From the NCBI GenBank assembly GCA_021432605.1, contig MU271152.1, forward strand, positions 62,001-126,000: 64,000 nt of DNA, in the 5' to 3' direction. The notes under the pieces are model-generated. The model ran no database searches, was not told the origin of the DNA, and saw only the letters and a list, made by a program, of their open reading frames with translations. This DNA comes from Coniochaeta sp. PMI_546. Lineage: Eukaryota > Ascomycota > Sordariomycetes > Coniochaetales > Coniochaetaceae. Positions 11,339 through 58,990 of the stretch are shown here, in pieces; the first letter of the stretch is position 1, and every line of letters begins with the position of its first letter. A program made the position numbers and the translations under genes.

Positions 11339-14300
11339 TCACCACCCCCTCCTCGACGTCCCTCTCGGCTCGAACCCCGGCCTCCTGGGACCCGGGCCAG
11401 AGGCCGACCCGGATGCCGATCCCGAGCCCGAGCCCCCGCCCCGACCGGCCTGCTCCTCCAGACTGCGTCTCGAGTCGCGCTCCAGCTCAGACATGGCAAA
11501 CACAAGCGGTTCGTCATCGGCTCCGTCCTCTCCACCCCGGTAGAATCTGCTCGTGCCTCCGCCGGAGAAACTTCCTCTCGACGATGAGGTAGCTTGGTGC
11601 GGCGGGGCTGAAGAACGCCCGCTGCCGCCGCGTGAGGTTGTAGCGGGGTAGCGTACACGATAAGGAGTGCCGGACAGCATGCTTCCGGGTGAGTGCGAGT
11701 CGGCGCTCTTGCCCGCATCCCTGTCGGGAGCAGGCGAGGGCGTCGCCCGCGAGGAAGACGGCCTGATATCCGCAGCCGGCCTTAGTTGGTCTGGGCCAGA
11801 ACTACCAGGAGCGACGGTTGGAGACCCGCCGGTCGACGAGGATGCAGTGGTAGCGACCGTGCGCTGGAGTGCCCGCAACGTACTCATAGTCGGGGCCTCG
11901 CGGTCGTCGGCGCCGAGACTGATGCTGCGCTGGTTGAGACCGAGGCCAACCTCAACATCGTCGTCTTCCCCCCGTGACGACCGTGGTCCTGCTGTCGACG
12001 AGCGGTGCTGATGTGCCACTGAGCTGGCCGCGCGCCGATCGACGGCTTGCAGGACGCGAGGTGACAGCGGGATGTCGATGGCTGTAGTGCCTTCTTGACT
12101 GACTGGTACCTGGGTGTCGTCTGCGCCGTCTCCCTCCGCCTCACCCTCTTCCTCAGCGGCCAAGTCTGGGTTCCGGGCTAGTCGACGGGCTCCTTGTCTT
12201 TGGCCTGGGTAGTCGATGATGGAGTTCTCGCTTAGACGTGATGGGATGGCGGGTGTGTGAGGAGTATGGGGCGAGAGAGGCTTGCTAGGCGAAGACGACG
12301 CAGACAGTGACGCCGGATTTACCATACTCGGGACGTTGGCGAGCTGCCTGCTAGACGAGCTAGAAGACCGGTGCAGGTGCATCGATGACGTTATCGAATC
12401 CGTCAGTGCATTGTTCGATTCTCGCATAAGGGCAAACTTGGAAAGTTGAGCCGCCGTCCTCTTGGCTGTGGTCGCCTCTCCTTTCTTGTTTGGCTCAAAG
12501 CTCTGCAATGTCTTTCTGCTGTCCAAGGCTTTTAAGAATTCCGAGATGTTGTCATCATCGGCCTGGAACGATCCCGAGCTGGCAGCGCCACCTGCTTCGG
12601 CGAGGAGGCCTGAGCCTGGCTGAGCAGACGACGAGAGACTCTGTCTTCCGCTGCTGATTTGATCGTCGTCGCCCGGTTTGCTTTGTCCTCCAAATGACAG
12701 CCGCCCACGTCGGTGCGTGAAACTGCTGCTATATCGACTGGTGTTCTGCGGCCTTGGGGATCCGACGACCGGCTGCTCGGACCCAGGTGGTGGTCCTCCG
12801 CGTAGTGACGCAGCCATGCCTGCAGTCAATGATGAGCGATTGGTCCTTGGTAGAGACACTCCGCTATATGAGTGACCACGAGAATGCGACGGCGAGCCTG
12901 GCGATTCGCCCTCACTCATTTTAGGAGAGCCGGAAAGTGAGCCGTTTTTGAAGGGGTTGATAGCAAGAGACACAGATGGTCGCCTGTTCAATGCTTCGTA
13001 GGTCCTGAACGGACGAGATCCCGACGATTGGCCTGGCCTGATGGGTAGAGAGTGTGGCGGATCTTGGTCGGCACTCTCTGGAGCAGATCCCGCAGGTGAG
13101 CTAGTATCGGATCCTATGGGACGGACAGCTCGCAAAGCTGTCATAGGGCTTGTGCCTAGAGCGCCGGCACCATGGAAGGTGGACAAGCTGCCATAGGTTT
13201 GCTGTGGTTCTTGACCAAGCCTACCGTGTCTATTTGAGGGCAGCGATCCAACCTCCCCGTAAGACTCGGTCCGCGCATGCTCCCTGCGCTGCGGTAATGA
13301 AGGTTTGAAGAAGTTTTCGTCCACTCCCATGAATCTAGAGCTTAATAATGACTCGGAGTCATCAACCCTAAAGTTGCAATCATTGCGATATGTCACCGAG
13401 GCACTGAACCTTCCTACAGGTATCTCCAGATCTCCGAACACGTAGTCGCTGACGACGTCGCTCCCGTCGTAGAGAGGTTGCCGTAAGGGGTCATATCCGG
13501 GGTAGTCCGGCTCTCCCGTCAGAATGCGACACTTTACGTCCAGAGCCGGATGGATCTTGTGTTGGGAGTGTTTCCACATTGGCATTATGTGAACCGTGGT
13601 GTATAGAGATCTGAAGAAGACAATGGCCCTTTTGTAGATGGTCGGCAGGGTCGGGGCGAAGTCGTCTGGTTCGTCGGTCGGTATGCATTTCAGCTCAACC
13701 CGCCATCGTTCCAGGATGACCTCGTTATTTCGCCTTTGCAATCGCGATGGACTGCCGCCACCGCTGGATGACTCTGACGAGTTCAATGCCTCTAAAACAT
13801 CCCACCTCTTGCCATTGTCATCCACTATCACCAAACTCTGACTGTTCGATAGTCGTGAGGCGTCGAGGTACGTCTCGATTATCATGGGTGGAGGTCGATT
13901 CTCGTAGCTGCCGGAACTTTTCCATATCTTGAGTTCTTCCTTGAAGTCGTCGATGTCGTCTGTCTCGATTTGGAACTAATTGAATCACTCTGGTGTTTAG
14001 CGGTGTGCCCCCTCCTCCCGAACGGTTGCCAATAAACCTGATCTGTGGTGTTGACTCACCCATTTATTAGTCTTCCCTCTATCCGAACCCTTGACCGCTG
14101 TAGGCGTCACATTGATTCGCGACTGCAATATAAGTACCGCAGCTTTGGAATGGAAGTTCTAGGGGCTGTTAGCTATTCTGTCCGGCCCAAGTCGTCACAC
14201 GACAGCCTGCCGTACCTGCACAATCTGGTCCAACTTCTTGATGGCTTCCCTGCTAGGGCCTGAGCCGGGTGTCTCTCCAGTGTCGCCGGTAGAGGAGCCT

Positions 14301-23902: not shown

Positions 23903-25597
23903 ATGGCCTCCCCCTCCGATACTCCCCCCTCCGACAACACCTCCTCCTCCTCATCGAACCCGCTCTCCCAATGGTTTCCAACCGGCCAAAACGACTCCTC
24001 CGGCTGGCGCCTCGACGTCGTGACCCTGCTGGCCGTGATAGGCGAGTCCAGCGTAGCCGAGCACAGCCAGGCCATAACCGCCTCCTTCCTCTGCCTCCTC
24101 CCGCGCATCATACCCGCCCCGCAGGCGCTCCTCAAGCCCTCGCGGCCCATGCGGCTGCCCGAAGTCCGAGCGAAGACGGCGGGGGTCTATAATGGGGTGG
24201 TGCTGGACTCTGTGGGGTTCTTCGCCGACATCTTGCACCCGCTGGACCAATTACATCCCTTCGAGTTCAAGGTGTTGGAGATCACGCACACGGACCTGAA
24301 CGAGGCTGGGGGCATCGTGGTTGATGGCGAGCGGGCCGGGGAGGGGAGTTGGGCGGAGGGGTTCAGGCGGATGTTCCGCCGGACGAGGACGCGGAGGGGG
24401 TCGGGGGAGTTTGACAGGCAGAGGCGGGGGAGCAGATTGACGCCCGGCCCGCTGCCGGAGGCGAACGAAGCGAGCAACGGGAAGGAGAGGGAAAAGGACA
24501 CCGTTACGAGGACCGGGACGCTGGCTACCGGCGCGAGCGGGAATGTTACGTTTGAGACCAAGGCGGACAACGATCCCGAGATCGGGGGCGTGCTGCCGCA
24601 GCCCGGGGTGAGGAGGCGGGAGACTGTGTCGGAGAAGATGACGGATTACCTCGTCAACCCGACCCTGGCGAACACGGAGAAGCGGCCTGCCGTGCCGGCC
24701 ACGCTGTACAGTCCGGTGCACGTGCTTTCGTTCCTGTCGTTCCTGCTGAGTCTTGCGCTGGTGGGGACGGCGGTCTACTGGAAGGACGGGACGGCGATCG
24801 TGGCCGTCGGCGCCATCAGCGTGGCTAGCAGTGTGGTTGGGTATGCGAGCTGGTGGCAGCCCATGCTGATGAACCGGAGCCACACGAATCAGGTGCCCCG
24901 CGGGGACGTGGTGATCCGTACCCGCGAAGGGGCGTTTGTGCTGATCCGGTGCACGGAGGAGGTTGCTAGGGAGCTGTACTCTGGCACCGAGGAGTGCATG
25001 TACTATGTCAGCGAGAGGAGTTATCCGGCGTACATGGGCATCGGGACGGTGATGCTCATGATCTCGGTCGTGCTGCTGGGCAACTGCAACTGGAACTCGC
25101 AGGTCTTCATAGGGGCCAGCTATATCACGCTCAACGGGCTGTATTGGGCCATGGGGCTTCTGCCGCGGGAGTACTTCTGGGATATGAGTCGGTACAAGTG
25201 CGAGGACAAGACGCCACAGGACGCGAAGGATGCGCACACCACGACCAACCCGGATGATCCGCGAGAAGGGGTTAAGAGTTATACACGGACCTTGTGGTAT
25301 GCGATCCGCGAGACGAGGAGGACAGGGTGGGTGGAGAGGAGTGGTGCGGCGCCGGGGACGAAGCAGTGGAGGGAGTGGCTGCAGGAGGCAGACCGGGCGG
25401 CCAAGAAGAAGCAGAGGAACTGGCCTTCTGTGCAGAGGAAGGACGAGATCATGAGGAATTTCATTGCCGAGGAGAGAGATTGCGCCGATACTGAGGCTGA
25501 GACGGATGGCGAGGCTGTGGATATGGCCGAACAGCATGCGCCGTTGATCGAGGTGCAGCCGAGGACCATGTCGGGACGACTGGACTCTTCGTTCTAG
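23903..25597 (+). CDS. Fungal four-helix integral membrane protein, function unknown
   Basis: Single-exon ORF of 564 aa from the first in-frame ATG (context CACAATGG). The N-terminal part is Ser-rich, then SQWFPTGQNDSSGWRLDVVTL. There is a basic, probably cytosolic stretch at about residues 155-200 (RRMFRRTRTRRGS). Two adjacent hydrophobic segments lie at about residues 271-292 and 297-318, and a second pair at about 378-400 and 406-426, separated by a loop with a Cys-containing ECMYYVSERSYPAYMG. The C-terminal tail is charged (KKKQRNW, DTEAETDGEA). I recognise this as a type of conserved fungal hypothetical protein but know no assigned function. High GC in codon third positions produces a 469-codon antisense open stretch, which I regard as a shadow. 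Confidence 0.8.
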   Translation: MASPSDTPPSDNTSSSSSNPLSQWFPTGQNDSSGWRLDVVTLLAVIGESSVAEHSQAITASFLCLLPRIIPAPQALLKPSRPMRLPEVRAKTAGVYNGVVLDSVGFFADILHPLDQLHPFEFKVLEITHTDLNEAGGIVVDGERAGEGSWAEGFRRMFRRTRTRRGSGEFDRQRRGSRLTPGPLPEANEASNGKEREKDTVTRTGTLATGASGNVTFETKADNDPEIGGVLPQPGVRRRETVSEKMTDYLVNPTLANTEKRPAVPATLYSPVHVLSFLSFLLSLALVGTAVYWKDGTAIVAVGAISVASSVVGYASWWQPMLMNRSHTNQVPRGDVVIRTREGAFVLIRCTEEVARELYSGTEECMYYVSERSYPAYMGIGTVMLMISVVLLGNCNWNSQVFIGASYITLNGLYWAMGLLPREYFWDMSRYKCEDKTPQDAKDAHTTTNPDDPREGVKSYTRTLWYAIRETRRTGWVERSGAAPGTKQWREWLQEADRAAKKKQRNWPSVQRKDEIMRNFIAEERDCADTEAETDGEAVDMAEQHAPLIEVQPRTMSGRLDSSF

Positions 25598-27052
25598 GGA
25601 TTCGTTGGGTATACATTCGAAGGGCGTATGGGGATATTCTAGCTTGCATGGAATGGGCATCTATACAAATACTGGCGGCATGTACACGGTAATGAGGAAA
25701 GGCTACTTTCGGGATATCTGGTCTAGCATGACGGGAAGGAAAATACAGGTCAATGTCTTAGGCTATCTCTGGATGCCACTCGTCGGGCTCGTCGTCCCGT
25801 ACAGTCTTGAAGTTTCGGTAAGGAAGGTGACAGACAGGTGAACTGAGCTAGACATCTAAACATTGATCGTGGACAGATCCTCTAAGCCAAGATGGCCCAA
25901 GGGATCAGTGACCATGTGTGCTCAGCGACAGCTCTATAACAGATCACATTGCTTGAAGCCAGTACTCACACAGGAAGATCACTTCCGAGCGCGTGTTCTA
26001 TTTGTTGAGAGACACTAGAATGCCGCAGATGGCCAAGTCCGTGCTAAAATCTAGGGTGAGAGCTCCCAGACAGGTTTCCAGCCGACTACCTCTCGCGCAG
26101 TTATTTAAATGCCTAGGAGAGCGAAGCTAAATAACATAGTAAGAGCTAAGGCTTGTACGAGAGATGGAATTGTCCACGTCAAGTTAGCTATTCTTAGACA
26201 CGTATGAAGGTGGACGACCTCCTGGTTATTTTGGAACCAGGGGGAGGAGGTCTAGACTAGAGATGTATGGGTGTGGACGACATCGTTCCGAATCAATATC
26301 TCGAACACACACAAAAGTTCCGGTAGCAGTCTGCGGTACCTGGGCTGCTGGGGTAGTGATTGAGGTAGGCGTCACCTCCATTACCGGTATGTTCTCGCGA
26401 TCGCGACGTTTACCAGCTACCTTACCTTATGCGGCTTATTCTCGCGCAGCCTTGTCGGGCAAGCCCGTTTCACAACAGGTCCTGTGACCTTCACGGCCGA
26501 CCAACAGGACGGCAAGGAGATGCTAGCATGAGTGAAACCGGAGCCTCTCAGTAGCTACGCAGGGAGAAGCTGAGCCCGAACCCGTCAAGATCCGCAACAG
26601 GACGGGAGGGAAACACCAAGGTAGCATCCCGGCGCCCTTTCGCGGGTTTGGCGGGTGCGGCCGGCTTGAAATACGGTCAGGTGGCAGCTGAAACCCGGCC
26701 CTCCGTGCAGGCCAGGCCGGCAACCATTTCGTGGCAGTGATGGCAGTACTTTGATGGAAGTCCGGTCAGCCACGGAGTTGGACACTCTAATGCTCTGGAT
26801 GCCTAAGGTAGTAGGACTGCAGATGTTAGCAGGACCATATCGGTCTGACCTACGAGTTTCTGGACGAACACGCGGCCATGCCACAACTGCTAGAACTGCG
26901 CTACTAGCAGAGTCCAGTGGAGGGCTTGAAAGGCAAGAGGATGACAAATGTACCACAGTAGATAATACCGGTAGTAATAGTCCTACAATCTACGATCTGC
27001 GGAAAGTGGAATTCACCTGCAGCCCTTCACAAGGGTACCGTTACAACGCTGG

Positions 27053-27059: not shown

Positions 27060-27576
27060 TGTTCTCAATTGACGAGGGATGCACGAGACGCACCGCCAGC
27101 TTTCCAATTCACTCTCCTGATTCGCTGTCACTGTTATAATGCGAGTTGAGACGATCGTAGAACTCGTTTCTGCACGGCACAGGTCCGTCTGGAAGATTGC
27201 TTGCAGGCTGTGGACTCCACTGCCAGGTCCGAAGTTGACTGGGGCACAGTCTGACCTCCGCAGTTTGCCGGCGCGGGAGACAATCGAGAAGCTTGATGGT
27301 GGGCAAAGCCCTACGAATTCATTTGCGTGGCCCTGACGCGCCCGTCCTGGAAAAGGCGCGGGAGAGGATTGCGACGCTTGGCCTAAGAAAGGTAGCCTAG
27401 GATTTTGCTTGCGTGTGCTGTCGCCAATGCCTTCCATCCCTTTCGACGAGATTCAGAAGATGGAATTTGAGTCCGCTTCAGTAGTCTTCTCATGAACTAT
27501 CTGTGATCCAATCGTAAAAGACACGATTCAAGATTGTATTGAGAGGAGGTGCCCCATGTGCTACGAAGAGTGCCTT

Positions 27577-27617
27577 TTGACATTTCCCTTGACATTTGCC
27601 TTGACATGTCCTGACAT
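27577..27617. repeat. Four tandem TTGACAT elements
   Basis: TTGACAT occurs at 27577, 27589 and 27601, with CTGACAT at 27611. Spacings are 12, 12 and 10 bp, with a pyrimidine-rich filler (TTCCC, TTGCC, GTC) between them. The array lies about 670 bp upstream of the CPC1 uORF1. Regular spacing near one helical turn suggests a cluster of binding sites; the factor is unknown. Confidence 0.6.
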
Positions 27618-27903
27618 TCCGCGCCTTTTGCGGTCCGATCCCACGACTTCCTGATCAAGGCGGCCGCAACGCTCCAATCAGAGGCACTCAATTTCGCGAT
27701 ATTCTGCTGCTACGCTAGTCCGCAAATGGCTTAGCCATTCTCGGCCGAGAGACAAAGTCCTCAGCGTTGCGCCTATTGGCTAGGCCAGGTCGTGAAGCTG
27801 GGGCAGTGCGCCAAGAGACACTCCATTTGGCGGCAGAATCACGACCCCCTGGTCGTCCGGCGAGGAAAGCACCCAGCCAGAAGGGGCTTAGCGTAAAAAG
27901 GTG

Positions 27904-27910
27904 TGACTCA
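27904..27910. promoter_or_regulatory. Candidate CPC1 autoregulatory element
   Basis: TGACTCA, flanked as TGTGACTCACAC so that the neighbourhood is itself a near palindrome. It lies about 375 bp upstream of uORF1. Gcn4/CPC1-type factors bind this word, and cpc-1 is known to be transcriptionally autoregulated in related fungi; use here is inferred. Confidence 0.5.
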
Positions 27911-28283
27911 CACGGTAAATCCCCACAATTGACTTTGGACATCAAACGGACAGAAGCCCCAAGCAACTGGTCCTGCAAGACATGTCCCTGCCTATCAGGC
28001 AGATCTCAAGATAGCGGGGTGAATAACCAGTGCGAAATTGTTAGTGGTTAGCTGGGAACTTGACCCGTCGTCCTTCGACTTCTTCACAGGTAACCAACAG
28101 GCGGGCAGGCAGTCAGTGGCCTGGCGCACATGCCCCTCCGCCTCGCGTTTGGCTTTTTGCTGCCTGAAAAATACAAAACCTCGCTCCGCCCACCAAAATT
28201 CTCGCTCGTCTCTCTTTTTTTCCCTTCTTCAACCCAAAATCTCACCACCAGAATATTATAACAGCATCAAGGTCACGTCCAAG

Positions 28284-28292
28284 ATGCGCTAA
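28284..28292 (+). promoter_or_regulatory. uORF1 of CPC1 (AUG CGC UAA)
   Basis: A two-codon upstream ORF. It lies in the same frame as CPC1, and its stop UAA marks the upstream limit of the open frame that continues to the bZIP domain. Minimal uORFs of this type allow reinitiation in the GCN4 system, where eIF2 phosphorylation lets ribosomes bypass the inhibitory downstream uORF. It assumes transcription starts upstream of 28284. Confidence 0.6.
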
Positions 28293-28979
28293 CTAAACCC
28301 CTTCCCCGGTGAACCTGCTTCGGCAACAATCGACAAAATTACTTCCACATCAAACTACACTTTTCTCCCCACTCAACCCCCTTCAGCTCTTCCTTCACAG
28401 GTCGATCTGAACTATAGCACTGTGCTTCCCAGCTCAAGCTCCAGTTCTCCGTCAACTACCGCCGCCATTTACGGCCTAGACTTCCCAGTCTTCATCACGG
28501 GTTCCCAACAGTCATCATGGCTTCCCTCCAGTTCCACCAGCCTGCCGGCAACACCCGCGCACCAACAACCTACTCAACCGCCGCAACAGGACTTCGTTCT
28601 GTTCCCCGACGAGCCTTCACGGCTAGCAGGACACCACCGTCAACCTAGACGCCTTGTCTCTCAACCTCCAGCCATCGGAGTTGTAACATCTCAGCAACCG
28701 CAACATCATCAACAACAGCACTATTCTCAGCAGCAGCAGCACTTAGGCTCGCCAGCAGTGCAGAATCAACGAGTTGCGAACATCATCCAGGCTACAGGGC
28801 ACGCAACGTCTTCTTCGGCTTTCAACAATCATCGGTTTAGCTCTACGCAGAACTCCAACCAGTTCTACGCTTCATCTGCTCCATCTTCCACTGTTGCTCT
28901 GAACCAGGCACGCGCCAACTCTCGGCCGCCAGTTCCCCTGTTCCCCCAAAGCACAGGTAGCATCCCGCAGCAAAACAAG
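28293..28979 (+). other. AUG-less in-frame N-terminal extension of CPC1
   Basis: 229 codons in frame with CPC1 and without a stop or an in-frame AUG. The translated sequence is not random: it is Ser/Pro/Gln-rich with blocks such as QPPQQDFVLFPDEPS, NQRVANIIQATGH and QFYASSAPSS, which look like conserved activation-domain sequence of filamentous-fungal CPC1/CpcA proteins. Near-cognate candidate starts include AUC at 28329 (A at -3, G at +4), CUG at 28407 and GUG at 28422 (A at -3). Published work on Neurospora cpc-1, as I recall it, reports initiation at near-cognate codons giving extended isoforms. An intron with an acceptor at 28400 (TTCACAG) is an alternative explanation, but no upstream AUG exon is obvious. 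Confidence 0.6.
28517..28648 (+). promoter_or_regulatory. uORF2 of CPC1 (43 codons)
   Basis: ATG at 28517 (context TCATCATGG, G at +4) opens a 43-codon frame ending in TAG at 28646-28648. It runs in the +2 frame relative to the extension and is nested inside it. It is the first AUG after uORF1, and no other AUG lies between it and the CPC1 AUG at 28980. Its size is close to the roughly 41-codon second uORF of Neurospora cpc-1, so it is the likely inhibitory uORF. It begins MASLQFHQPAGN; peptide sequence conservation is not known to me. Confidence 0.65.
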
Positions 28980-29669
28980 ATGTTCTCAGGTAATTTGCCA
29001 TCTCACCGCTCAGCCGCGTTACACTCAAACTCACACACCTGCTCAGATCTCGAGGATTTCACCGCCTTCGGTGGCGGCGCTTCTGGCTACGACATGAGCC
29101 GTAGTGCCTCCAACTCCACCAACATGGGCACCATCTCACCGAGTGAACTGCTCATGTCTGCGCCCAACTCCACCGCGCTCACAGCTCTTACTTCGCCTTC
29201 TATCTATACTCCAGAATTGAGCGATAGCTTCGATGTGTCGCCCAGCTTTGAGCCCGCCGACGCGTGGGACAGCTCAGACAACTGGCCTTCATTGTTCCCC
29301 GACAGCAACGCGGCTCAGCCTCTTGTTGCCGACCAGTCTCCTGACATGGACGGCATCGACATTGAACAGGCTGCAACAGCTCACGAGCGTCGCAAGTCCA
29401 GCAATGTCTCGCCCAAGAGCTCTAGCCGTCACTCGCTCGTCGCTGGCGTCAATGCCCGGAAGCGCGATAAGCCCCTCCCTCCCATCGTAGTCGAAGACCC
29501 CAACGACAGCGTGGCCGTCAAACGAGCTCGCAACACTCTTGCTGCTCGTAAGTCACGGGAGCGGAAAGCTGCAAAGATGGAGGAGCTGGAGGCGGAAATC
29601 GCCCGGTTAGAAGCGGATCGTGATTATTGGAAAAACTTGGCGATGGCACATGGCGTGAGCGGTGCTTAA
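28980..29669 (+). CDS. cpc1: Cross-pathway control bZIP transcription factor CPC1 (GCN4/CpcA ortholog)
   Basis: 229 aa from the first in-frame ATG to TAA. The C-terminus is a GCN4-class bZIP: basic region VKRARNTLAARKSRERKA, with the Asn, two Ala, Ser/Cys-type and Arg positions that contact TGACTCA, then a leucine-zipper stretch MEELEAEIARLEADRDYWKNL. Upstream are an acidic patch with DNWPSLFPD, resembling the Gcn4 central activation motif (WTSLF in yeast), and the linker RDKPLPPIVVEDPND preceding the bZIP as in family members. The factor activates amino-acid biosynthesis genes during amino-acid starvation. Translational control is indicated by two uORFs and a long leader. The same frame extends upstream without AUG, so longer isoforms are likely (see the 28293-28979 entry). 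No intron is needed in this part. Confidence 0.9.
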   Translation: MFSGNLPSHRSAALHSNSHTCSDLEDFTAFGGGASGYDMSRSASNSTNMGTISPSELLMSAPNSTALTALTSPSIYTPELSDSFDVSPSFEPADAWDSSDNWPSLFPDSNAAQPLVADQSPDMDGIDIEQAATAHERRKSSNVSPKSSSRHSLVAGVNARKRDKPLPPIVVEDPNDSVAVKRARNTLAARKSRERKAAKMEELEAEIARLEADRDYWKNLAMAHGVSGA

Positions 29670-31813
29670 GAAGCAGTGCTCACCGGTTTACCAGGGTTTG
29701 GTCTGGAACGACCTATTTAACCCTCGTCCAACTTCGCGGACGAGGAGGGGATTAGTTTATACCTGTCTTTTCTACTTACTCCCACTAGGGAGTTAGTTTC
29801 AAGCATTTCTTACAGTTCGGTTCGGCTTGGACGTGTTATCTAGTATCTCTATCATCCGGACGAACTATTTTGGGTTTCCTAGGCTCGATGCTGCTGAGGA
29901 GTTTCGTCTCCATCGACAGACATTATGTGTTAGTTTCTTAGGCTCAATTATATCGGGGATCTTTATCCCTCGAACACAACTTGTGACGCATCTTAAATTT
30001 ACATCTTGTCCACTCGTCGTGATTATGAATAAGGTCAGCCTCATCCTTGTAAGACGGCATTGCTTCTGCCCGCCCTCAGAGATCTTCTGCCTCGTACCTT
30101 ACCAGCACAACTGTTTCCGTTACCTGTGGCACCCCAAGCTGTATACTCCGACTTATTTCAACTTGCAGAACCGGCGGCAGTTGCACGTCTCCCTTCACTC
30201 AGGCGCTCACTGTGCCTTCTCAGCCCTCCCCTGACCAAAAGTTAGGTGCTCAGCCAATGAAGGTCTGACGGTTTACATCGGGTCGTTGCTTCTCCGCGGC
30301 TGACCTCCTACAGGCTCACTTGCTGATTAAGTCTATGATGGAAACTCCCATATGATGGAACCCCCATGACAGATCTTCAGAGGACAAAAGGAACTCGTTT
30401 CCACGGCGGAGTTTGCCTGCAAACCATCTGTCGGTGCCTGACTGCGTTCCAGCCTTACCTCTTCAAACAACCTGGATGGAACTCATGTATGCTCAGGCTT
30501 TCCTTCAAACGCCTGATTCTGCTATGCTCACGATGACAATGTCATTGTCAACGATACCCGCGGCTTCTCTCGGCTTCTACTGTGAAGCATGTGCCTGTTT
30601 GCTAGACGCTTTGTAATACGTAGATAAGGTAGCAAGATAACTTGGTATCGAATTAGTACGCGTACGGTAGGCAAAAGATAGATACTTATTTCTAGACCTC
30701 TCCACCCATCCAACGCACTGCTTGGCAATGTGTCCGTTCTCCTGAGGTACTGCCGAGATAACAAGTCCCGGAAACACGTCCTCTCACGCCGTTCTAGCTG
30801 GGCACTCTCAAGCAAAGTCTGGTCTTGGAGCCTAGGAAAGACCGTAGACTGCCGCCATATAGTTGGATGGAATTACATCGTAACTTGATTCGTGGCCACT
30901 GTATTGTATCCAGGTACGTCGAGATAATAACACGCGGTCCTGCCCAAAGCAGAAAAGTGTCGCCGGAAGTGTGACCGTATCTTTATTCATTCAGACCGTA
31001 TTCGTCAAAACTCTATAAACACGTAGAAATAAGAACGAAAAGCAAAGCTGAGGTCATGTTCCCCCTATGCAATGAACAAAAGTCGGAAAAGAACCTTTCC
31101 TTTCCGATCCGCACCTTTTTCCAAGCCGAAAAAAAAAAACATGCCAATCCGGTAGTACCAAGTTGATCCAGTTTTCCATCCAGCCCTCCATCGAACCGAT
31201 CATGCTGAAGACGCAACCCCCTTTGCCATTGCCTCTTGACCTCAAGGCTGGGCAATTCGCAATCCTCATGCGTGCGGTACCATCGGGTTGAACTCGGCTT
31301 GCTTGTCTCTCATGTTACATGTCAAATGCTCTCTCGCAAAGTAGGAATTCGATCTCGGAATAACACCAGACGAGAATGGAAACTGAGACAACCTAACCCC
31401 GACGAGACACAGAAGAAACCCAGTGGCGCAAAAGCCACCACCGGAGCCCTCGGGAGAAAGGACAAAGTACTTTTTGTTGTATCCACTGAACCCTCCGCCG
31501 TGCAGGGAAAAGGCCCAAAACATGAGAGTCGTCATAAGGGCGTCTTTCAGCCACGACGTCCGAGAACTTGTAGGAAAGGGGCATTAAGTGAGTCCCACCC
31601 CCAGGTCTCATCTTCTCTATCTCACTACTTCTGTTCCTGCTCTTCGTAAAATAATCGACGAGATCCCCTGACCGAACGATATAGGCGGGGATCTTAATCG
31701 TACATATACAATGTGATTAGGTTCTTTGCTGGTATTATCCTGCCGTAGTTGCAGGGAAGGAGGGGTGTTTTCACGACGTCCGCATGCTAGACTGCCTCGT
31801 GCGCACTTTCGAA
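29670..31813. other. Convergent intergenic region
   Basis: About 2.1 kb between the 3' end of CPC1 and the 3' end of the large minus-strand gene. Near 29705-29750 a CCTCGTCC / CGGACGAGGAGG pair could form a hairpin in the CPC1 3' UTR. An A-run lies at about 31129-31139. No gene was recognised. Confidence 0.45.
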
Positions 31814-34800
31814 TCAGCTCACTGTCATCAACTGCATCCTGTGAGAGTCGACCGACGTCCTACTCAGCACCGTGCTGGAGCTGTGGCTCTTCGGTAACCG
31901 ACTCGATGGGCTCGACGGCGGCTCCGTGAAGACACGAGTGAAGGCCGGGCTTCCGTCAGCCAGCCGTGAGTGACGCTCCCTTCGTGGAGTCCCTGCCGGG
32001 CTCTGCGTAAGCACCTCGGCTCGGCGAACAATGTCTGAGAGGGAATCCCGAAGGTGGCTGGCCCGCTTGACAAGTTCCTGAAGACTGTTTGTATCGAAGA
32101 AGAGCTTCGACTGTGATGGTTTGACGGGCGATCGACGCCTGACAGGTTCCGCGGCACGCTGTTGCTGCATGGCTTCCATGACTATGGAGATCATGGCCGA
32201 GTCACGGGTGGAGTTCCTCGGCTGGTCCGGGGTCCGAGGTCGATAAGGAGAACCGCTTTCTTCAGACAATGGCCAGTTGTTTCCGAAGATATCATCCTCC
32301 GGGGAAAACACCGATCGGCGGCGCACTAGCTGGCGTTCCCGTACAACCGCGGTCTTGGACATTTCAGGCTCGTCAACCAAAAATGAGTTATACGAGGGTT
32401 TGCGTTCCAGGCTGCCTGCATCAAAGCCGTCATCCAGAAAGCGTTCGTCAATTGACGTGGCATCGAATTCATCGACGCGTTCCGTCGGTAATTGCAGGTC
32501 TTCGTCGTCTTCGTCGTCATCCGGCGCGGCCAGTTCGATAATGTTTTCTGCCTCTCTCCATTTCGCTGCAGAAGAACCATCAAGCATGTCAAGATCTTTA
32601 CCGTGCCGACACAGCCGCTTCAAATCGTTGACCAGCAATGACAACTCTCGAATTTGACCAGAGTGTACCTTGACAGTGTTCTGAATTGCCTGGATAGATG
32701 GGGGGACAACCATCGAAAAACTCGTGGTCGAGTCCTTTCCCCCAACCGGACCAACAATATCCTCACCCAGGTCGAAGTCCTCGTCCCAGTCCTCGCTTAC
32801 GTTTTTCGTGCCCATGCCCCAAGTTCCGAACTTCGGGACAACCTTGGATGTCTCGGCCGGATCTGGAACCACTGGTACACTTTGGCTTCGCACATGTGCT
32901 GCAACCGGACCCTTGCGGTTAGCAGGACGGCCTCCTCTCAAGTCCAGCTCCTGCTTGCCGTGCACAGTCTTCGGCCTAGGCGAATGTCCATCAACCTCGA
33001 ACTGCGAGATTGGCTCGCTCCAATCGAAAATGTTGCTCCGAGGGCGCTCCGAGAGAGTATCCGGGTAACGATCAGAACTGCTGTTGCCACTAATAGAAGC
33101 TAGTGCATGTCGAAGGTTGGGACTCGCCCTCTTCGAGTTCAACGAGCTCGTCGGCGGCGATAGGTGGTTGCTCAGCGCATTATCGTCATCCCGTGCCCAG
33201 TCGTCGTCGTCGTCATCGTCAAGTGACATTCGAGCAAAGTCAATGTGGGCCATTGACATGTCGCGGTCGAGTCTCAAACTTTTCTCCACGGGTCGATCGT
33301 CCAACTCGATGTCGGCCTGAGCATGGCTGGCTCTGATTGGTGTTGATATGCTCTCATCCTCCTCTAATATATTCGTGTCGACATCCCAAGACTGTCCAAG
33401 AATTTCCTGAATGGACAACCTCTTTGTCCTGCTGTTTCCGGCTGTGCTCGGCGGCGACTCGTCAAACATGGATTCCAGTGGTGTCTCTACAGTACGCAGT
33501 CGCACCGATGTCCCTGTGCGAAACGAGTCATACATTGTGTCGCTCCTGCCATCGGTATCGTCATCGTCGCCAGATGTAAAAAGATTCTCAAAATCGGAAC
33601 TAACGATGGTCGAGGCACGTTCACCTGATACGGCTCGACTCTGAGGCATGGATAGCTGGATATGCGCGCCTGCCGAAAGCGTCGCAGGCGCGTGCGACGG
33701 CCGACGGGAACCGGACGATGACGACGCTGTAGTTAGCCCTACTCGGGAGACGTCGACATTGAAACTTGAGAGGCGAGATAGTGGTGGTAGTGGGGAAGAG
33801 GAATTTCGTTTTCTGGCTTTTGGGTGGTAATTGGACGCAGGTTCGGGCTCCAATTGCTGGCGGGGCTGATGTGAGATAAATATTTGGTCCAACGCAACAG
33901 AAGCCTTGGACTGTGGTTGGCCTGAGACGGGCGATGTCGTTGTCGGGTCTGATACATTCCGCCTGCCAGCCAATTTGGCTTCACTGGATCCTCGTTTTGA
34001 CCGCCGTATGCTGCCAGTTTTGGAGATCCAAGTGGTCGGTGAGGTGAAGTGCATTGATATCGACCGCCGTACCCGCTTGGTCGGGGTTTCATCGGCAGAA
34101 ACAGGTGATCCATCCTTGGTGGTATCAGGGCTGTCGTCAATCATTCTGTAATCATCACGGTAGGCAGCGTCTTCCGGTCGTACTGCAGTGCGAGTTATCA
34201 GGGTGGAGGCCCTGACCAGATATGCACGAGGTTTGCCTCCAGAGGGTAGCTGCACCCGTTTGTTTGGCCCCGGTGCAACGCTCGAGTTGTCAGAACTGCC
34301 ACGGCCAATCCTCTTAATAGCTCGCGAATGGAAGAATGACGTCCAGCCAAGATTTTCTTGAGTATAAGCGGAATCCATCTCCACGGCAGGCAAGATCTCC
34401 TTCGGGCGTAGTTGCTGATCGAGGGAAAATCTAGGCGCATGGGGTGGGCCGGAAAACCCACCCTGGGCTTGGAACTGCTGCAAAGTGGCAGATCTCTGGT
34501 GGCTTGTCGCTGGTCGCCGTAGAGAAGGCATCTGGGATCTCGATCCTCGTCTCAAGACAGTCGCCGTGTTGTTACTCTGGTCAGATGTCCCCCGTTTGAC
34601 AAGTTTGTTAGGCGGTAATTGGGAGACTGCTGGCCCGTGTGGTGATAATATAGGAGCGCCAGAGCCGTGGGAGAAGAAAGACGGCGCATCAGGACCTATA
34701 CTCGAACGCGGGCTTCCATGTTGCGAGAGCGGGCGTATCGAAGAAAGTCGCTTCATCCACGACCCGTTGGATGATATCGAATCCCTAGTATTTTCTGCAA

Positions 34801-35357
34801 TTGGTCGTGCAGACAGGTCATTCTGCCTCATGAATGATTGCCTGCGGCTGGTCGTCTTTGGGGGCGTAAGTTGACTCTGAGACGGTCGTGGACGTGCAAA
34901 ACTTGGCGGATGTGAGAAGAGAGGGCTGGGTAATGGCTCGTCGAGATGTCGCGGGTTTTTGGACGGAAGATCTTCTGGGGGACTGTCGAATGCGGGGGAA
35001 TCGGCCTGCTTGGATGAAGTACGAGGACGTATGCTGCCAAAGTTTGAGGTCAACTTCCTCTTGTTCGAATCCGGTCGGCATTCTTGGGGTCCGTCGGGTT
35101 GGGCAAAGGCCAACCCAGCAGTCGCAGCGGCCACGATGGTACCAGTCCCTACGAGCTATATACTCATAGTTGTCAGCCTCAATCCAGAAAAGACCAATCG
35201 GAGGTCGGGTGTCGATCATAAGATCATTCGTCCCAAACAGTGACTGAACCGTTCTCTGAAGCTTCCCAACGGCAAAATTCCAGGTGCTCGTCCCCGGCCT
35301 GCTTGCTTCGGTTCAATTGAAGATGTGATAACGACTTACACTTGGTACAACCTCCAT
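31814..35357 (-). CDS. Large disordered fungal protein, function unknown
   Basis: Two-exon model, complement(join(31814..35155,35340..35357)), 1119 aa. The big exon is one open frame. The 18-nt first exon (MEVVPS) is inferred from an ATG followed by GTAAGT, and a GCTGACAA branch site 17 nt before TATATAG. The joined N-terminus MEVVPSLVGTGTIVAAATAG begins a short hydrophobic segment, perhaps a membrane anchor. Most of the rest is Ser/Pro/Arg-rich and probably disordered, with many possible phosphosites. More ordered-looking pieces are LGQSWDVDTNILEED, an acidic EDWDEDFDLGEDI (about residue 795), PPSIQAIQNTVKVHSGQIRE (about 823-855, likely helical) and a C-terminal helix NSLQELVKRASHLRDSL. I considered a Byr4/Bfa1-type GAP subunit because of the WDEDF motif but cannot support it. 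Exon 1 is the least certain part. Confidence 0.7.
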
Positions 35358-57277: not shown

Positions 57278-58990
57278 ATGGCCACTCAGCAGGATTTGCA
57301 GGAGCTTCTCCGGCTGCTCACCGTCAGCCGGAAGATACCCATGATACAAGCCATGGGCCAGATCAAAGCACTCCAAGCTGTCGATCTGAAGAGGTGCGCC
57401 AATCGTCGAACTCAGACTTGAAATTCTGGAATAGTACTAATCACGTGAGACAGCATCAAGGACATTGCAGATGCCGAGCTGTCAGTAGTCCAGTCCGCCG
57501 TTAAGGACGAGAAACAAGCCAAGGCCCTGCAGTCAGCCTGCAAAGCAATTCTCAAGCGCGGCAGTGCTGGCAGCAAACGTGATGCTCCCTCAGCCTCAGA
57601 ATCACCATCATCCAAGCGCTCCAGAGTCTCATCAGACACAAATGATCTCCTTCCTGGCTTGAGCCAACAGGCCCAACTCTCACCCCAGGAGCTCGAAGCA
57701 TCTCTTGCACTACCTATCAACCTGGACGAGGACCTGATCTCACGCACAGTCCTCCAAACCAACCGCGCCCCGCTGGTCCTCGCCTTCGCCGTTGAGCTTC
57801 TGCGGTACACCAGGCCCGAGCAGCCGCCCTCAAGCCGCCTCAGCCTAGCCCAGGCCGTCGTAAGCGCCAACTCGCGGTCGAAAGCCGTCAGCCTCGGCCT
57901 CGAGAAGGGCGCGCCGGCCGAAGACGAGGGCTGGGGAACCGGCCAACCGAAGGTACGAGTCATGGGCCGCGACGTCGCCGTCCTGAAACGGGGCGGCTAC
58001 GAGTGGAAGGGCGAGGAGGAGGTCGGCACGGACGAGGTCGCCGCCTCAGAGCCAAAGGCCTCAGAGCCGCCAAAGACACACCCCTTCTTCCTGCCTCAAC
58101 CCGAACCCGAACCAGCCCCTTCATCGCCGATCTGGTCGACCTCGCAGCCGCTCTCCCTCAAATCTTCGACATTTGTCGCGCGCGCAACGGCAATCACCTC
58201 TCCCTCCCAGCGCCAGGCCCTGCTCACATCCCTCATGACCTCCATCCCGCACCTGAAAACGGCAACCCACAACGCCTGGGCGTACCGCACGACCTCCAAC
58301 ACGGGCTACGTGTCGGAGCAGAGCGATGACGACGGCGAGACGGGTGCGGGCGCTCTCCTCCTGCGCGTCATGCGCGACTTGGGGGCGACGGACACCCTGG
58401 TCGTCATGACGCGCTGGTACGGGGGCATCATGCTCGGCCCGGACCGGTGGCGGCTCATGCGGAACGTGGTCACTGCTGCGCTGACGGAGAGGCTGAGGAA
58501 GACTGGGACGGAGGTCGTGGTTGGCGGCGAGGCGATCTGGGGTCTTGATCTCGAGGGGATGAGGGGGAAGGCTTCCGGGGCAGGGGGAGGAGGGAGGCAG
58601 GCCGGGAGCAGTGTGGTGGGGATGCAGATACATAGTCCGCAGGGGGCGAGGAGTTATCTGCTCAAGAGTTTTGGGAGCGCTCCGGCTGAGGAGAAGGCGG
58701 GAGGGGGTGGGGATGAGGCAAGTCCGGGTAAGGTGAAGAAGGCGGCGAAGAGGACGCTGAAGGACATTGATAAGGAGAAGGAGGAGAACCTCGGGTTGTT
58801 GCTGGGGGCCCTGAGGTTGTTATATGACAGCTGGGCCGATCATCTGAGCCCTGCTGATCTTGACCGTAGGGCTTGGAGCTGGTATGTCGCTGTCAGACCC
58901 GAGGTTGACGTTGGGCCGTCTGGCTGGGGGGCCAAGGGGCTGTTGAAGTTGGAGGATATCTTGAAGCTGAGGAGGAAGGAGAACACTTGA
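57278..58990 (+). CDS. IMPACT-domain (UPF0029) protein with helical N-terminus
   Basis: Two-exon model, join(57278..57393,57454..58990), 550 aa, with phase kept across AG|C. The C-terminal half holds an IMPACT domain: SSTFVARATAITSPSQRQAL, THNAWAYRTTSNTGYVSEQSDDDGETGAG and the signature VVMTRWYGGIMLGPDRW (about residues 355-371). IMPACT and yeast Yih1 bind Gcn1 and restrain Gcn2. They carry an N-terminal RWD domain, and none is visible here. Instead there is a helical segment (MATQQDLQELLRLLTVSRKI and LQSACKAILKRG), a Ser-rich NLS-like KRSRVSS stretch, and an acidic linker. After the domain comes a Gly-rich insert and a second helical part ending LLKLEDILKLRRKENT. The domain call is firm; a role in GCN control is only a possibility. 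Confidence 0.85.

Follow-up and report, generated by a model that had tools for sequence, protein, structure and literature searches.

The closest described system is the leader of cpc-1 in filamentous fungi, which Ivanov et al. (2017; PMC5487733) compared across 100 Pezizomycotina. They report a uORF1 of 3-6 codons and a uORF2 of 35-70 codons in the -1 frame, along with a CPC1 frame that is open across uORF2 and stop-free for at least 160 codons. Three near-cognate codons are described as deeply conserved: NCC6 (CUG in 73 and UUG in 4, together 77 of the 100 species), NCC7 (AUU, including AUC/AUA, in 74 of 100) and NCC8 (ACG in 98 of 100, always flanked by A-3 and G+4 where the ACG occurs). 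From NCC8 to the AUG the reported dN/dS is 0.348, a sign of purifying selection on the extension, and two regions of the extension are conserved, one under uORF2 and the other at codons -16 to -10 (PMC5487733).

The experiments of that study were carried out with Neurospora crassa (PMC5487733). Mutating NCC5, 6, 7 or 8 abolishes specific products in extracts, and mutating the earliest codons, NCC1-NCC4, causes no detectable change; early AUC codons of N. crassa occur only in its close relatives. In vivo, footprints that lie 5' of the AUG but not within the uORFs follow the CPC1 frame, and four of the eight near-cognate codons of N. crassa show a build-up of footprints. Near-cognate starts gave less than 1% of the main-AUG output in an in vivo reporter, toeprints were without signal at the near-cognate codons, and larger products remained, although reduced, when NCC5-8 were all mutated. 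Thus, the exact starts and the amounts made from them are uncertain even in N. crassa. The role of the extended isoforms was already left open by these authors (PMC5487733), and the main point of their study is restated in a commentary (PMC5676045).

Two further systems are relevant. Leptosphaeria maculans, a dothideomycete, has the shortest extension of the 2017 set (160 codons; PMC5487733), and its cpcA is reported to carry two leader uORFs and to encode an AUG-started bZIP protein of 246 aa (PMC3199737). Saccharomyces cerevisiae GCN4 shares with the gene described here the bZIP domain and, presumably, the uORF-based logic of starvation control, but unlike it lacks an in-frame extension (PMC5487733).

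Genomic context and gene identity

We analyzed a window of 64,000 nt (the whole stretch of DNA under study) on one of the 24 contigs (C10) of a 33.5 Mb genome. A uL3 exon is closest to chains 7r81, 8oo0 and 7olc, which we take to be from Neurospora and Chaetomium ribosomes (470.5-480.9 bits; the next match scores 400.8, among 60 of the 70 matches listed, a ranking by score and not by a tree). This comparison is the basis for tentatively placing the host in Pezizomycotina.

The gene is very probably a filamentous-ascomycete orthologue of cpc-1/cpcA/GCN4, preceded by the leader conserved for that gene. A GCN4-type bZIP domain lies at the C terminus of the CPC1 frame. It was matched by Pfam bZIP_2 above the cut-off (E 5.8e-06) and by bZIP_1 below that family's own cut-off, and GCN4 itself (2dgc_A) matches the frame at E 2.5e-05, with GCN4 chains forming the top four of the 6 PDB matches. 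A Pfam match to DUF7831 (residues 104-166, E 0.018, 15.3 bits versus a cut-off of 27) was dropped as low complexity, the segment being rich in Q and H. No Rfam family matches at its gathering score in 27500-30500. Searches for CPC1 relatives, using as queries the 458-aa frame and an alignment to the GCN4 bZIP, returned 62, 20, 86 and 93 pattern matches with none confirmed by tblastn; they covered prokaryotic and viral contigs and say nothing on fungi. Coordinates of the leader and of the gene are given in Table 1.

Table 1. Positions (in the window) of the CPC1 gene, its leader uORFs and its candidate near-cognate start codons.
Feature	Positions	Strand	Basis or remark
uORF1, ATG CGC TAA, 3 codons including stop, CPC1 frame, A at -3	28284-28292	+	sequence
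AUG-less in-frame N-terminal CPC1 extension, 229 codons	28293-28979	+	frame scan; homologous feature in PMC5487733
CPC1 stop-to-stop frame, 458 aa	28293-29669	+	ORF scan
AUC, 446-aa product, A-3, G+4	28329-28331	+	named by the sequence-only reading; early AUC codons sporadic in PMC5487733
AUU, 443-aa product, A-3, A+4	28338-28340	+	sequence
CUG, candidate NCC6, 420-aa product, G-3, A+4	28407-28409	+	matched to NCC6 by order and identity
GUG, 415-aa product	28422-28424	+	named by the sequence-only reading; not one of the eight N. crassa near-cognate codons
AUU, candidate NCC7, 400-aa product, G-3, U+4	28467-28469	+	candidate for NCC7 by order and identity
ACG, candidate NCC8, 390-aa product, C-4, A-3, C-1, G+4	28497-28499	+	context TTCATC ACG G
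uORF2, 44 codons including stop, -1 frame relative to CPC1, A-3, G+4	28517-28648	+	sequence
CPC1-frame block QDFVLFPDEPS, under the uORF2 overlap	28587-28619	+	frame translation; matches the published first conserved region by position alone
VPLFPQS, codons -16 to -10 before the main AUG	28932-28952	+	matches the published second conserved 7-codon region by position alone
CPC1 main ORF from AUG, 229 aa	28980-29669	+	ORF scan
bZIP region, GCN4-like, residues 409-442 of the 458-aa frame	29517-29618	+	Pfam and PDB matches

To the two sides of CPC1, Pfam identifies an ATG13 autophagy protein (11339-13885, minus strand) and an Etd1-like septation protein (31814-34831, minus strand). Upstream of the leader there is a small tandem repeat (27577-27611, 2.9 copies of TTGACATTTCCC). 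The motif TGASTCA (CPRE) occurs three times in the window versus 11.2 expected; the one at 27904-27910, which precedes uORF1 by 380 nt, is therefore by itself no evidence.

Elsewhere in the window, a second ORF with an ATG-less in-frame extension was found at 57449-58990 (plus strand), with 171 codons before its first ATG at 57962. Past the ATG, at residues 238-345 of the 513-residue frame, Pfam UPF0029 matches (E 1.1e-26). This domain belongs to the IMPACT/YIH1 family, whose members restrain Gcn2, the kinase acting upstream of CPC1; the simple reading is an intron-bearing gene. A long plus-strand ORF (564 aa) and a long minus-strand ORF (469 aa) overlap each other at 23903-25660, and neither has a Pfam match at E 0.001.

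Leader architecture

The leader resembles that described for N. crassa cpc-1 (PMC5487733) in its short uORF1, in a longer uORF2 that is read in the -1 frame, and in its open, AUG-less CPC1 frame. uORF1, with 3 codons including the stop, and uORF2, with 44, fall within the published ranges of 3-6 and 35-70 codons, and uORF2 overlaps the extension. The open, AUG-less part of the CPC1 frame begins upstream of uORF2, reaches the main AUG and counts 229 codons, where the published minimum is 160. As in L. maculans cpcA, two leader uORFs precede an AUG-started bZIP protein, although the main ORF is shorter here (229 versus 246 aa), as is uORF2 (132 nt versus 159 bp), and the distance from uORF2 to the AUG is 463 nt compared with 344 (PMC3199737). 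The N. crassa uORF1 occupies frame 2, and the CPC1 frame there continues to the transcript start (PMC5487733), whereas at this locus uORF1 is in frame 0 and ends the extension at 229 codons.

The frame relationship of uORF1 creates a further route to an extended protein. Because uORF1 shares the CPC1 frame and ends in UAA followed by CUA (28284-28295, plus strand), a readthrough product is conceivable: ribosomes that failed to terminate at uORF1 would make an AUG-started CPC1 that includes the entire extension and measures 461 aa if M, R and the stop-site residue are counted. If so, the reinitiation element and the extended isoform would use one common start codon. We regard this as highly improbable. 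N. crassa cannot use this route, since its uORF1 is in a different frame, and the abstract, results and discussion of PMC5487733 do not mention it. In a fungal test, a swap of UGA to UAA lowered readthrough. The UAA CUA motif may be chance.

Open frame ahead of the main AUG of CPC1

The extension contains no stop and no in-frame ATG between the uORF1 TAA and the main AUG, and the only plus-strand ATGs in 28284-28979 are those of uORF1 and uORF2. The sequence-only reading had described exactly this, 229 codons of open CPC1 frame with no AUG, bounded by the uORF1 stop, and its coordinates are exact. The other two forward frames of the segment contain 7 and 5 stops. We sampled 264 kb, made up of the window and 20 further stretches of 10 kb each, for ORFs that have a closed 5' end and no fewer than 200 codons. 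Among the 67 such ORFs, this one has the longest extension, followed by one of 171 codons.

The frame could be open merely because the leader is C-rich and poor in stops, in which case the extended protein would be unimportant. Base composition (C 38%, G 17%) does make stops rare in the extension, and 23 of 2000 dinucleotide shuffles of its 687 nt are stop-free in frame (mean, 4.0 stops), but an AUG-less stretch as long as this one has no equal among the ORFs sampled. The open AUG-less extension is confirmed as a real feature, and from this genome alone it exceeds chance only moderately.

Codon usage adds to the case for chance. With 37 long ORFs taken from 200 kb of this genome as the training set, the codon log-likelihood gives z = 1.53 for the extension and 5.05 for the AUG ORF, with control values of 1.54 for a promoter stretch (27600-28286) and -1.21 for a 3' stretch (29670-30356). 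Since the promoter control equals the extension, this score cannot separate the extension from non-coding DNA. N. crassa cpc-1 has a codon usage that differs from that of its genome (PMC7554675), so a weak codon score decides neither way. The CPC1 frame has the top full codon score of the six frames in the extension (-31.5; second, -38.3), and by a synonymous-only score the +1 frame (-1.5) is better than the CPC1 frame (-9.9). From the end of uORF2 to the main AUG, the CPC1 frame has no stops and the highest full score of the six; the part overlapping uORF2 is uninformative (codon z -0.3 and 0.2). Period-3 signal over the full extension is not significant (rank 76 of 1000). The stretch between the uORF2 AUG and the main AUG ranks 10 of 1000 and the AUG ORF itself 0 of 1000, compared with 338 and 417 of 1000 for the promoter and 3' controls.

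Activator regions are often rich in S, Q and P, and the extension peptide has these residues at 16.6, 13.1 and 12.7%, respectively. The extension had been said to look coding. The peptide blocks named in that connection are present in the CPC1 frame, but this genome alone supports its coding character only weakly. The very low reporter output in N. crassa is also what an unimportant protein would predict. Against a by-product of composition stands the published record (PMC5487733), in which the frame is open in 100 of 100 Pezizomycotina and under purifying selection. This conservation makes chance openness unlikely.

Splicing

A spliced leader offers an ordinary route to a long protein, in which an upstream exon with its own AUG is joined to the frame near 28400. 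The sequence CACAG at 28396-28400 follows a pyrimidine-rich stretch, as an acceptor would, and an ATG at 28130 opens a frame of 43 codons. However, introns scored with a model built from 23 of 24 genome introns, a small set selected for having open flanks and GTNNG donors, do not bear this out. The top intron ending at 28400 scores 7.6, with a donor of 1.5, where the training minimum is 16.3; the best donor 5' of 28400, at 28090, reaches 3.9 compared with a 5% quantile of 5.8; and uORF1 is without GT and could not donate. Scores for whole introns cover lengths of 45-129 nt. An earlier model with only 6 introns had been dropped. L. maculans cpcA is reported as intronless, with both uORFs in the 5' RACE product (PMC3199737), and the N. 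crassa frame continues without a stop up to the mapped transcript start (PMC5487733). We consider an upstream AUG exon very unlikely.

Across 28051-29640, nothing in the 45-129 nt range reaches the training minimum. One candidate in-frame intron of 57 nt (28990-29046, plus strand; GTAATT ... CTCAC ... CTCAG) scores 14.1, below 16.3. It begins 10 nt past the A of the main AUG, and its removal would take out 19 codons, keep the frame and leave the extension untouched. Terms such as intron and uORF are absent from the accessible text of the paper on Cochliobolus ChCpc1 (PMC12345223).

Near-cognate start codons

CUG 28407, AUU 28467 and ACG 28497 stand in the published order between uORF1 and uORF2, a match made by order and identity and not by alignment. 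As in N. crassa (PMC5487733), this CUG/AUU/ACG series lies upstream of uORF2, the ACG has A-3 and G+4, and the frame ends in a GCN4-type bZIP. The ACG is in frame and located 20 nt upstream of the uORF2 AUG. Among 5000 shuffles of 28293-28516, an ACG with A-3/G+4 arises in 169 and an open frame in 956, with both together in 35.

The sequence-only reading had pointed to near-cognate initiation for Neurospora cpc-1, and rightly so (PMC5487733). Its choice of codons agrees in part with the conserved set: CUG 28407 fits NCC6, but AUC 28329 and GUG 28422 fit no deeply conserved start, and the NCC7-like AUU 28467 and the NCC8-like ACG 28497, which has the best context, were overlooked. An extended product of about 446 aa had also been proposed, and AUC 28329 does yield 446 aa. 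Given that mutation of NCC1-NCC4 was without detectable effect in N. crassa, this form seems the least likely isoform.

Ribosomes could also enter the CPC1 frame between uORF2 and the AUG by +1 frameshifting within uORF2, without any near-cognate start. The authors of PMC5487733 name this possibility, and uORF2 is in the -1 frame at this locus too. Against it are two of their N. crassa results, the loss of specific products on mutation of NCC5, 6, 7 or 8 and the gathering of footprints at four of the eight near-cognate codons, and we give frameshifting a very small chance of being the explanation.

Discussion

The reading that we consider very probable is a conserved cpc-1 leader with uORF control plus minor CPC1 isoforms started at near-cognate codons. 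The near-cognate interpretation of the extension in the sequence-only reading is the one published for the same gene, and it is supported, as the architecture tested here fits it. The frame, the uORFs, the codons with their contexts and the bZIP domain are established by the sequence of this locus; initiation, regulation and selection on the protein are aspects that we infer from the published orthologue.

By analogy with that orthologue, ribosomes would translate uORF1 and then resume scanning. With amino acids plentiful, reinitiation would take place at uORF2, which is inhibitory; phosphorylation of eIF2 would let the ribosomes get to the main AUG. A minority of scanning ribosomes may initiate at near-cognate codons between uORF1 and uORF2, for which ACG 28497 is probably the best candidate, then AUU 28467 and CUG 28407. 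Ribosomes started in this way would read the CPC1 frame through uORF2, producing CPC1 forms of about 390-420 aa that bypass uORF2.

This architecture is not new, having already been published for cpc-1 across filamentous fungi, and the locus is an ordinary, well-formed example of it. The finding adds one more fungal genome with the published combination of two uORFs, near-cognate codons and no AUG; no new question is opened, and start codons worth testing are identified. For annotation, a CPC1 model beginning at 28980 leaves out a likely minor class of isoforms.
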